Shown here piece by piece: positions 19,026 through 25,581 of a DNA stretch of 64,000 bases; the stretch's first letter is position 1, and every line of letters begins with the position of its first letter. The translations under genes and the position numbers were made by a program. The stretch covers positions 1-64,000 of the forward strand of contig NZ_SEWF01000027.1 in NCBI RefSeq assembly GCF_004168285.1, written 5' to 3'. This DNA is from Emticicia agri (GTDB lineage: Bacteria > Bacteroidota > Bacteroidia > Cytophagales > Spirosomataceae). The notes under the pieces are model-generated. The model searched no databases, was not told where the DNA came from, and saw nothing but the letters and a program-made list of their open reading frames with translations.

Positions 19026-20135
19026 ATGGCAAAGAATCTTTTGATATTTCTATTATTTGTCGTTTTTACAGGTAAGGCTCAGCCTAATGCACGACCCGTA
19101 ATTATCTCACCGGAGGTGCATGCAGATAATACCGTTACGTTTCGTTTCTATGCACCTGCTGCCAAAGAAGTAAAACTGAATGCTCAGTTTGAAAAAACGC
19201 CATTGCCCATGAATAAAGACGAACGTGGTATTTGGAGCATTACTACAAGTGCTGTAAAGCCCGATATGTATCCTTATGCCTTTAATGTAGATGGAATTCA
19301 GACGGCCGACCCTAATAACTCAGCTATTTTTCCGAATGAAGGCTTTCAGAATAGTCTCGTAGAAATTACCGGAAACTCGCCTTTAGTGCATACAGTGCAG
19401 CATGTACCGCATGGCACTATCTCTTATCGTTATTACCAATCTGCCGAATTAGGCACTCGTCCGGTAGTCATCTATACACCTCCCGGCTATGAGGCTAATG
19501 CTAAAGTTTCCTACCCTGTGCTTTATCTCTTACATGGTACTACCGACACAGAAGAAACCTGGACCAAAGTAGGAAGAGCCAATATTATTCTGGATAATCT
19601 GATTGCTCAGGGAAAGGCCAAACCTATGATTATTGTTATGCCTTATGGTCGGGCATATCCGGTCATCAGCAAATCATCAGGAAGCCTGAGAAACTGGGAT
19701 AATTTACAAGAGTTTAAGAAAGACTTCTTCAATAACCTATTGCCATTTGTTGAGCAGAATTACAGAACCATCAAAGATAAAAATAGTCGGGCTATTGCAG
19801 GTTTTTCTGGCGGTGGAGGTACTACCTTATACTTTGGACTGAACAACACCGATAAATTTGGCTATGTATGCGGCTTTGCGCCCGGCATGCTTAAAAATGA
19901 ATTTGACAGAAACAACGAAGTAGCGTTTAAGAATCCTGAGTTGGTTAACAAAAATCTGAAATTATTCTGGATAGGCGTAGGTAAAGATGATGGCTTATAT
20001 GGCGTAAATCAGGAATTTATGCAGGTGCTTGACCAGAAAAAAATTAAATACGAAAGCCTGATTTCTGATGGTGGTCATACCTGGATGAACTGCAAGCTCT
20101 ACCTCAGTACCATTGCGCAGAAATTATTCAAATAA
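19026..20135 (+). CDS. CE1-type (feruloyl/acetyl) esterase, tandem copy 1
   Basis: First of five neighbouring esterase genes. The protein has 369 residues: a signal peptide (to GKAQ), a CBM48-like immunoglobulin-fold domain (about 25-110, [19 protein letters not shown]) and an esterase D / CE1 alpha/beta hydrolase domain (about 125-369). The nucleophile Ser is in AGFSGGG, the acid is probably in GVGKDDG and the His is in DGGHTW. Known members cleave ferulic or acetic acid from arabinoxylan or pectin arabinose. It begins 29 bases after the GH29 gene. Confidence 0.88.
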
Positions 20136-20164
20136 CAAATTGATTTTACCGAAAAACCATAACT

Positions 20165-21325
20165 ATGAAAATTAAAGTAATCATTCAGTTTTTGGCGTTT
20201 TATATCATACTGGCAATACCCGGTATTGTCAGTAGCCAGCCACCACGAGGGCCATTAGTGATTTCTCCACAGGTAAATGCCGATAAATCGGTAACCTTTC
20301 GTTACCTGGCGCCCTTGGCAAATGAAGTAAAACTCAGTGGGCAATTTCTAAAAGCCCCTGTAGCCATGACAAAAGATGCACAGGGTATCTGGAGTGTAAC
20401 TACTGAGCCTATCAAACCTGATATTTACCCTTACAACTTTCAGGTAGATGGGATAGGGGTAATGGATCCGGCCAATGTGGCTTTCTTCCCGAACGAACGT
20501 TTTAAAGCAAGTCTGGTAGAGATTCCAGCAGATGTGCCTTCGGTTTATTCATTAAGAGAAGTGCCTCACGGTACCATCAGCTACGAATACTATCCTTCTG
20601 TAGAAGGCTCAACCGGGACTTTGGTTGTGTATACACCTCCGGGTTATACCAAAGAAAGAGCAAAAAAATATCCTGTTTTTTATCTGATTAGCGGTACAAC
20701 AGATACAGAAGAAACCTTTTACAAAGTAGGTAAAACCAATTTTATTCTCGACAACCTGATTGCTGATGGCAAAGCCAAGCCTATGATTGTAGTAATGCCC
20801 TACGGAAATCCGGCCGCACGCATTGCCGAGCAAAAAGGTCTATCTAAACCTGCTGATATCATGAATCGTGACAGTGAAGATGCAGTCAAGAGAGCCAAGT
20901 TTTTTGAAACAGACCTGATTACTAATATTATCCCTTATATAGAAAAAAATTACCGCACCCTAACCAATCGTGAGAACAGAGCCATTGCCGGTTTTTCTCG
21001 GGGTGGTGGACAAACGTTGAGAGCTGCTTTTAATAATATGCACAAATTTGCCTGGGTTTGCAGTTATGCTTCCTATATCTCACCTGCCGAAATGGATAAA
21101 GGGTTTAGTCATATTGGCGGCGATGCCGCAAAAACCAATCAGCAGTTGAAACTACTCTGGTCGGGTATCGGAACTGAAGACTTTTTGTACAAAGGTACTG
21201 TTGAATTTGAAGATTACCTGAAAGCGAAAAAAGTAAACTTCAAAAGCTATGTAACCGATGGCGGACACACCTGGATGAATGTGAAAAAGTATATGAATGA
21301 GACTTTACCTCTATTATTCCAATAA
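20165..21325 (+). CDS. CE1-type esterase, tandem copy 2
   Basis: Same architecture as copy 1: signal peptide, CBM48-like domain (VTFRYLAPLANEVKLSGQF) and CE1 domain, 386 residues. Nucleophile Ser in AGFSRGGG, acid Asp in GTEDFLY, His in DGGHTWMN. Compared with copy 1 it has an insertion of about 20 residues before the helix leading to IIPYIEKNYR. The next gene begins directly after its stop codon. Confidence 0.88.
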   Translation: MKIKVIIQFLAFYIILAIPGIVSSQPPRGPLVISPQVNADKSVTFRYLAPLANEVKLSGQFLKAPVAMTKDAQGIWSVTTEPIKPDIYPYNFQVDGIGVMDPANVAFFPNERFKASLVEIPADVPSVYSLREVPHGTISYEYYPSVEGSTGTLVVYTPPGYTKERAKKYPVFYLISGTTDTEETFYKVGKTNFILDNLIADGKAKPMIVVMPYGNPAARIAEQKGLSKPADIMNRDSEDAVKRAKFFETDLITNIIPYIEKNYRTLTNRENRAIAGFSRGGGQTLRAAFNNMHKFAWVCSYASYISPAEMDKGFSHIGGDAAKTNQQLKLLWSGIGTEDFLYKGTVEFEDYLKAKKVNFKSYVTDGGHTWMNVKKYMNETLPLLFQ

Positions 21326-23582: not shown

Positions 23583-23658
23583 TTATTTCTGAAACAACTT
23601 TGCACAATACTTCCTTAAAATTACATATTTATAAATTGATGATAAATTAGTGTTAAGC

Positions 23659-25581
23659 ATGAAAAAACTCATATCACTTTTCGGTTTTTTGAGCATAATG
23701 ATTTCTTCATTTGCTCAAACCATCGAAAAAGAAGCACCCAGGGGATTTGATAAAGAACGCACAGGCATAGCTAAAGGTAAACTGGATTCTATAGTTTATG
23801 AATCAAAAACCGTTGGAAATAGTCGCAAGGCATTGATTTATACCCCTCCGGGTTTTGATAAAAAGAAGAAATACCCTGTATTATATCTTTTGCATGGCAT
23901 TGGTGGAGATGAAAAAGAATGGGTCAAAGGAGGTAATCCGCCAGTGATTCTTGATAATCTCTATGCTGATGGCAAAGTACAGCCCATGATAGTAGTGATG
24001 CCTAACGGACGAGCCATGAAAGACGACAGGGCTATTGGTAATATATTTGATAAAGAAAAAGTAGAAGCGTTTGCTACTTTTGAAAAAGATTTATTGAACG
24101 ACCTTATTCCATTTATAGAAAAGAAGTATCCTGTGCTTACCGACCGTGAGAACAGAGCTATTGCTGGTCTTTCGATGGGAGGGGGGCAGTCGCTTAATTT
24201 TGGTTTGGGTAATTTAGATAAATTTGCCTGGGTAGGAGGGTTTTCTTCAGCCCCTAATACCAAGCGTCCGGAAGAACTCGTACCTAACCCCGATGAAGCC
24301 AGAAAAAAACTTAAATTACTATGGATTTCGTGTGGCGATGGTGATGGCCTTATTACTTTCAGCAAGCGCACACACGATTATCTCTATGAAAAAGATGTAC
24401 CGCATATCTATTATGTTGAGCCAGGCGTGCACGATTTTAAAGTCTGGAAAAATGGACTGTATATGTTTTCTCAGTTCTTGTTTAAACCTGTCAGCACCAA
24501 AGACTTTACCAGCTATTCAGTATTAGGAACGCCCGCAGCAAGCAATATCAGAAATGCCAAATACCCACAGATTTTGCCAGATAACCGGGTGATATTCAGA
24601 GTAAAAGCGCCTGACGCCCAAAAGGTTCAGATTGATTTAGGGAAGAAGTATGACATGGTAAAAGATACCAGTGGTTTCTGGATGGTTACAACAGATTCTA
24701 TCATCCGGGGCTTTCATTACTATTCGTTATTAATTGATGGAGTTCCTGTTGCTGACCCTGCCAGTGAGAGTTTCTATGGTATGGGTCGCATGGCGAGTGG
24801 CATAGAAATTCCCTATAAGGATGGTGGATTCTATGCTTTGAAAGATGTGCCTCATGGCGATATTCGTATAAAGAAATATTTTTCAAAGGTTTTAAATGCC
24901 TGGCGTGAAATGTATATTTATACGCCGCCGGGTTACGATGCCTCTGCCAGTAAGTATCCGGTATTATATCTTTTGCATGGAGGAGGCGAAGATCAGCGCG
25001 GATGGGCAACCCAAGGGAAAACCGATTTGATTTTAGACAACCTCATTGCTGACAATAAAGCCAAACCGATGCTAATAGTAATGATGGACGGGAATATAGG
25101 CATGGGTGGAGGCGTAGCAGGTTTTGGTGAAAATGCGCTGAAGGCATTTGAGAATGAATTGAAAAATGCGGTCATTCCTTTTGTAGAATCCAATTACCGG
25201 GTTTTGGCAGATGGTAAAAACCGTGCTTTGGCCGGACTTTCTATGGGTGGATTGCAGACGCTTCATGCGGGTGTCAGAAACTCTGACCTGTTTAATTATC
25301 TGGGAGTTTTTAGCTCAGGTTGGTGGGCTAATAATAGCAAATTATCAGATCCTCAATATGAATTTATGAAGACCAACAGCGATAAGATAAACACTAATCT
25401 CAAAGAATTCTGGATTTCACAAGGAGGTAAAGCAGATATAGCCCATGCCAATGGACAGATTATGATGAAAAAATTTGACGACATGGGCATTAAATATAAA
25501 TACAGCGAATATGGCGGCGGGCATACCTGGCCGGTCTGGCGACATGATTTGATGATGTTCGCCCAATTGCTTTTCAAGTAA
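23659..25581 (+). CDS. Double CE1-type esterase (two catalytic domains)
   Basis: A secreted protein of about 640 residues from ATG 23659 (a GTG at 23650 is also in frame). The signal peptide is followed by a first CE1 domain without a CBM48-like domain (about 35-280; Ser in AGLSMGGGQ, acid in CGDGDG, His in PGVHDF). Then come a CBM48-like domain (about 300-390, [18 protein letters not shown]) and a second CE1 domain (about 400-640; Ser in AGLSMGGLQ, His in GGGHTW). Both triads look complete. It gives the locus a sixth CE1 catalytic module. Confidence 0.88.

Follow-up and report, generated by a model that had tools for sequence, protein, structure and literature searches.

Why would a bacterium keep six esterase modules of one family side by side, and are they fresh copies of a single enzyme or old enzymes held together? 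The question is raised by positions 19026 to 25581 of a 64,000-nucleotide stretch of Emticicia agri DNA (contig NZ_SEWF01000027.1, positions 1 to 64,000; hereafter the window), where five complete plus-strand open reading frames (ORFs) without internal stops encode CE1 proteins only, separated by successive gaps of 29, 0, 37 and 67 bp. All five genes pass the Pfam cut-off for PF00756, the α/β-hydrolase domain of the CE1 carbohydrate esterases, and the fifth holds two modules (5a and 5b), giving the unbroken run of six that a first-pass annotation of this DNA had described. A scan of the whole 6.65 Mb genome finds 25 PF00756 matches, six of which are this run. Rather than a recent burst of copies, the block represents an old form of a fibre-digestion cluster whose kind is already known. 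As a whole, the run is probably the de-esterification part of an arabinoxylan polysaccharide utilization locus (PUL) of the published 'esterase genes-enriched' (EGE) kind, composed of old, separately kept, specialised modules.

The first-pass annotation had taken copies 1–3 for recent tandem duplicates and proposed a phylogeny of the six catalytic domains as a check; the phylogeny speaks against that idea. Over aligned columns, copies 1–3 are 48–52% identical to one another and every other pair 30–39%, and each of the five paralogue pairs tested shows saturation at synonymous sites. Scanning named genomes yielded 463 stretches with relatives of copies 1–3, of which the best 80 were kept, representing 78 loci; with three plasmid records, the genus regions and a few loci from the same genome, these supplied 418 modules (397 distinct) for the tree. 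Each window module falls in a clade of its own, with 51, 70, 64, 87, 60 and 59 distinct members in clades 1, 2, 3, 4, A (module 5a) and B (module 5b), and 6 modules unplaced. FastTree supports are 0.999, 0.957, 0.829, 0.977, 1.0 and 0.965 in the same order, and a 71-row tree gives the six clades SH-like approximate likelihood ratio (SH-aLRT) values of 97–100. A tree constrained to join window copies 1–3 is rejected by the approximately unbiased (AU) test (p-AU 2.6e-53). Because each module lies in its own clade and the joining of copies 1–3 is rejected, the copies are older than the genus; together with the low identity, the saturation and the separate orthologue groups in other genera, the AU result rules out a recent duplication. 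We are less sure that clades 1–3 form a single group, for which support is 0.027 in the midpoint-rooted FastTree tree, 0.999 with wtsFae1B included in the 397-sequence tree and 100 in the 71-row tree, whose long branches affect deep joins more than the six clades.

The modules also differ beside the nucleophile. As the first-pass annotation had noted, a GxSxG elbow and a catalytic His are present in all six. The elbow reads GFSGGG in all 51 distinct clade 1 sequences, GFSRGG in 70 of 70 from clade 2 and GFSVGG in 64 of 64 from clade 3; GLSMGG is found in 60 of 60 sequences of clade A, 57 of 59 of clade B and 71 of 87 of clade 4. The first residue after the catalytic Ser (residue 262 of copy 1; Gly, Arg or Val) is the sole one of 254 aligned columns that is at least 90% conserved inside clade 1, clade 2 and clade 3 alike but holds a different residue in every one of them, and a threshold of 85% adds one more, residue 215. 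In clade 2, the His of the HG motif is replaced by Ser (67/70) or Gly (3/70). We take both the residue after the Ser and the HG position to border the oxyanion hole. Clades 1, 2 and 3 are old groups, each with its own fixed residue next to the catalytic Ser. The possibility that the elbow residue itself creates the clades is ruled out, as all six stay monophyletic when the elbow and HG columns are removed, the lowest support being that of clade 3 (0.778).

These patterns bear on whether the copies simply share one job and were amplified for more esterase output. The modules do have the same fold and sit at the same locus, and clade 4 has multiplied in some relatives, with four or five clade-4 modules at loci L057, L058, L069 and L075 (five at L069). 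We nevertheless judge a dosage effect very unlikely, given the divergence and saturation among copies 1–3, their assignment to separate orthologue groups with fixed, distinct residues beside the nucleophile, and the rejection of the tree that joins them. The modules are instead old, separately kept paralogues, each probably retained to handle its own ester or sugar surroundings. More tentatively, clades 1–3 may be three uncharacterised CE1 subfamilies that share out among themselves the ester linkages of complex arabinoxylan, such as diferulates, p-coumaroyl esters or feruloyl groups carried by substituted arabinose; the one residue that follows the catalytic Ser (Gly, Arg or Val) would then determine specificity. 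This one-position hypothesis is directly testable, and the residue is the most useful new fact to come from the locus.

The Ser-His-Asp/Glu triad of CE1 is complete in five of the six window modules, the acid being Asp in copies 1, 2, 3 and 5a and Glu in copy 4. Module 5b alone departs from it, with Ser and His in place and Ala in the acid column. This column is Glu in the ten other Emticicia and Runella rows compared (L011 and L017 being the same record), and Asp or Glu in 56 of 59 distinct clade B members; outside clade B, every one of the 332 distinct sequences in the other five clades has a complete triad, as do the same 56 of 59 within it. Some modules might thus no longer be esterases, with 5b serving as a binding or structural domain. 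Besides the Ala, the minimal activity of the C-terminal domain of DmCE1B on model substrates, as given in the excerpted text of PMC8040265, fits this idea, yet that domain groups with clade 4 and not with clade B. Module 5b also retains an Asp directly after the Ala, and the authors who described Bi1033 think that a neighbouring Glu may substitute there (excerpted text of PMC7815789). Relative to Emticicia sp. C21, the ratios of nonsynonymous to synonymous substitution (dN/dS) are 0.046, 0.014, 0.011, 0.028, 0.031 and 0.020 for modules 1, 2, 3, 4, A and B, and no module, 5b included, looks to be decaying. We therefore consider a loss of esterase function in 5b unlikely, and read it with the others as a predicted esterase.

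The first-pass annotation described all these proteins as CBM48-like. Only copies 1 and 3 pass the Pfam cut-off for CBM_48, copy 2 falling slightly under it (21.8 vs 22.4). For copies 4 and 5 the Pfam search at E 0.001 has no CBM_48 match, but copy 4 and module 5b align over nearly their full length with solved CBM48-CE1 proteins. An N-terminal CBM48 would not fit in 5a, for which there is no room. Translation of copy 5 may perhaps start at an alternative ATG, at 23659.

Is a set of six unusual? The claim that it far exceeds what is typical stands against published PULs, with three CE1 proteins in that of B. intestinalis (PMC7815789) and three CE1 domains in D. mossii PUL 17 (PMC8040265), both as given in the excerpted text. 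It holds less well against relatives. Counting modules of at least 200 aa, leaving out contig-edge fragments and one split ORF, and defining an unbroken run by gaps below 1.5 kb, at least six modules occur in 32 of 88 distinct loci (largest eight), at least six in an unbroken run in 15 of 88 (largest seven), and at least six in 29 of the 57 loci with full 10 kb flanks; these loci, the window among them, were chosen for likeness to copies 1–3 and some are truncated where a contig stops, which means that these numbers should not be read as frequencies. All six types are present in 24 of the 88, in the exact order 1234AB in 12 and 12344AB in 7, and the reversed orders 2-1 or 3-2 occur in none. 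Wherever a classified B comes after A, the two share one ORF (54/54 loci). The 11 genomes of the genus vary: six modules are contiguous in three (G000, G004, G006) and divided in G003 between two sites some 22 kb from each other; G002, G005 and G010 have 2-4-A-B, G001 and G009 have 4-A-B, G008 has 2-4 on a clipped 4,981-base contig, and G007 shows no run among the matches listed. Across the class, with up to six candidates scored per genome, the profile of copies 1–3 is matched at E 1e-70 in 23 of 296 genomes, and only 4 of the 296, including the genome itself, exceed 600 bits, which is where copies 1–3 of the window score, the next match scoring 333. Few members of the class have true copies 1–3, and within this lineage the block is common but varies in make-up.

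What the esterases act on is suggested by their relatives and neighbours (Table 1). The nearest PDB entries are 6RZN/8BBP for copies 1, 2 and 3 (227, 210 and 209 bits), the XynZ feruloyl esterase 1JJF for 5a (259 bits) and DmCE1B_ct for 5b (361 bits). All the nearest solved relatives are thus feruloyl esterases or CBM48-CE1 proteins, in keeping with the prediction that the modules remove ester-bound groups from the arabinoxylan of plants. The first-pass proposal of a heavily esterified, feruloylated, arabinose-containing glycan agrees with a context that includes SusC/SusD, two GH43 enzymes, an arabinofuranosidase, an AraR-type regulator and orthologues of araB, araA and araD, together with the SASA/BD-FAE and carboxylesterase-family esterase genes. 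From 10323 to 27210 no gap exceeds 67 bp, which suggests a single transcript.

Table 1. Features of the window, numbered from its first letter
Feature	Position	Strand	Basis and remarks
SusC and SusD	4686–9397 (SusC 4686–7817, SusD 7850–9397)	+	Pfam
GH95-type probable gene remnant, N-terminal part only (197 aa)	9684–10277	+	Long GH95 match at same place in several relatives
GH43	10323–12002	+	Pfam, PDB search; best PDB 7ERL, then 7JVH (GH43_12)
GH43	11999–13576	+	Pfam, PDB search; best PDB 6MLY (BeGH43/FAE, GH43 part)
SASA + BD-FAE fusion	13601–15310	+	Pfam
Carboxylesterase-family gene	15298–16884	+	Pfam
α-L-Fucosidase family with discoidin domains	16894–18996	+	Pfam, PDB search; best PDB 0940_GH29
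Copy 1, CBM48-CE1	19026–20135	+	Clade 1; elbow GFSGGG; complete triad
Copy 2, CBM48-CE1	20165–21325	+	Clade 2; elbow GFSRGG; Ser replaces His of HG motif; complete triad
Copy 3, CBM48-CE1	21326–22423	+	Clade 3; elbow GFSVGG; complete triad
Copy 4, CBM48-CE1	22461–23582	+	Clade 4; nearest solved relative wtsFae1A (6RZO, 491 bits)
Copy 5, CE1 (5a)-CBM48-CE1 (5b)	23650–25581	+	Clades A (5a) and B (5b); DmCE1B architecture
Acid-column codon of 5b, GCA (Ala)	25432–25434	+	Alignment with relatives, which have triad Glu
α-L-Arabinofuranosidase, presumably family GH51	25618–27210	+	Pfam
AraR-type NUDIX regulator, araB, araA, araD, transaldolase-family gene, SSF transporter	27407–34486	+	Pfam, orthologues
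GH10 xylanase	36187–37290	-	Pfam; related to GH10 after CE1 block in relatives
Second SusC/SusD cluster with GH10, FAA hydrolase, MR_MLE enolase-like, RraA-like and SBF transporter genes	36187–46541	-	
Two phage-integrase-like genes, then D5_N/DUF5906 and DUF6371 genes	55502–62810		

Taken together, the locus most likely encodes a set of specialised esterases that work in the periplasm on arabinoxylan carrying feruloyl and acetyl groups; the periplasmic location, the substrates and the division of labour are what we infer from these relationships. Oligosaccharides would enter through SusC/SusD, and in the periplasm the six serine-esterase modules, by attack of the Ser on the ester carbonyl, formation of an acyl-enzyme and its hydrolysis, would take off feruloyl, related phenolic and acetyl groups. 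The GH43, arabinofuranosidase and GH10 enzymes could then finish the de-esterified chains, and the released arabinose would be used by the ara operon. By analogy with XynZ and DmCE1B_nt, the latter active on feruloyl and acetyl substrates (excerpted text of PMC8040265), 5a may be the main feruloyl/acetyl esterase. Copy 4 would be wtsFae1A-like, and copies 1–3 may each have a specificity not described so far, to which the residue next to the catalytic Ser would contribute.

The arabinofuranosidase, GH43 and ara genes would also fit a different target, namely pectic arabinan with feruloyl or acetyl groups or some other glycan rich in arabinose; GH127 genes at the loci of some relatives and the position of the window's GH10 gene, in a separate cluster on the opposite strand, point the same way. 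We regard such a target as improbable. Two GH10 genes, checked with Pfam, lie downstream of the block both in Runella slithyformis (plasmid pRUNSL01, with one small ORF in between) and in Spirosoma oryzicola (plasmid), and thus favour arabinoxylan over arabinan. The best PDB matches of the GH43 enzymes include a 'beta-xylanase' entry and BeGH43/FAE, and arabinoxylan loci of Bacteroidetes are the source of Bi1033, Bi1039 and DmCE1B, according to the excerpted text of PMC7815789 and PMC8040265. The window GH10 itself is 71% identical in DNA over about 1 kb to the GH10 gene behind the block at locus L034.

Several observations weigh against the assignment to a periplasmic, feruloyl-directed arabinoxylan system, the separate GH10 cluster among them. 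The resemblance of the N-termini to Sec signals was judged by eye only. The BD-FAE domain of the SASA/BD-FAE gene has no match to 6MLY at E 1e-15, so that the feruloyl esterase partner of BeGH43 is not reproduced, and among the window proteins that were scanned, Pfam matches neither a hybrid two-component system (HTCS) nor GH3. Of the six clades, support is lowest for clade 3 (0.829, 0.778), and 5b lacks the triad Glu. In the excerpted text of the two papers, Bi1039 has very little feruloyl esterase activity (PMC7815789) and DmCE1B_ct none (PMC8040265); CE1 homology is a poor predictor of the ester cleaved.

Other features of the locus vary between relatives. At the GH95 position, genus genome G001 (L012) also has a short match only, and in Emticicia sp. 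C21 (L018) no GH95 match separates SusD from GH43. The SASA/BD-FAE fusion recurs in Emticicia sp. C21, and two adjacent ORFs take its place in 13 of the 27 loci shown (duplicate L017 uncounted). Whole or partial blocks occur in the three best-matching plasmid records (L009, L010 and L011, from R. slithyformis, S. oryzicola and E. oligotrophica), a hint that the block can travel on large replicons. Horizontal transfer to Flavobacterium, suggested by L034 (a record titled Flavobacterium sp. SUN052), was dropped because the G+C content outside the block there is 0.507, compared with 0.34–0.36 at L063, L070 and L057, which are likewise labelled Flavobacteriaceae, so that the record title may be wrong. 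Long DNA matches of L034 to Fibrella L043 are mostly at 87–92% (80% over GH10), and misnaming or contamination is possible. Elsewhere in the window, the second SusC/SusD cluster might, as a guess, serve oxidative sugar-acid catabolism, and the integrase-like genes with those that follow them, which lie downstream of both sugar clusters, perhaps form an integrated element.

A literature search found no paper on Runella, and papers on Emticicia and Spirosoma were judged unrelated from titles and the starts of abstracts; for EGE PULs it gave PMC7815789 and one paper on pulmonary embolism. The closest published system is the EGE PUL, defined in the excerpted text of Pereira 2021 (PMC7815789) as a PUL in which the carbohydrate esterase genes, known or putative, number more than two; B. 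intestinalis has five. The window locus likewise combines SusC/SusD, GH43 enzymes, several CE1 proteins and other esterases, with five CE1 genes, the SASA/BD-FAE gene and the carboxylesterase-family gene next to SusC/SusD. It differs in having five CE1 genes with six modules in place of three CE1 proteins, and an ara operon with an AraR-type regulator in place of an HTCS; the HTCS and GH3 β-xylosidase of the type example, for which the window proteins scanned give no match, lie outside the stated definition. Bi1033 and Bi1039, both from the B. intestinalis EGE PUL, fall within clade 4, as do DmCE1B_ct and wtsFae1A; wtsFae1B lies outside all six clades, as sister of clades 1–3 in the 397-sequence tree and elsewhere in the 71-row tree. 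Not one of these five placed CBM48-CE1 enzymes of solved structure thus belongs to clades 1–3. wtsFae1A and wtsFae1B (6RZO and 6RZN) share the CBM48-CE1 arrangement of the window proteins, and their elbows read GLSMGG, unlike those of copies 1–3.

D. mossii PUL 17, with its GH10, GH43 and GH51 setting, shares the architecture of copy 5, in which two CE1 domains are bridged by CBM48, although DmCE1B_ct groups with clade 4 and window module 5b with clade B. According to the excerpted text of PMC8040265, dual-CE1 enzymes occur in more than 50 PULDB entries, and the CE1 domains of PUL 17 behave differently in assays; its authors argue for different domain roles and call elusive the structures in the cell wall on which DmCE1A and DmCE1B_ct act. 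With its paralogues in the same order in many genera, the block offers a natural side-by-side set for asking why fibre degraders need many esterases. The number of modules does not set it apart by itself; compared with the published loci, the block is a real, well-kept and larger variant of the same kind.

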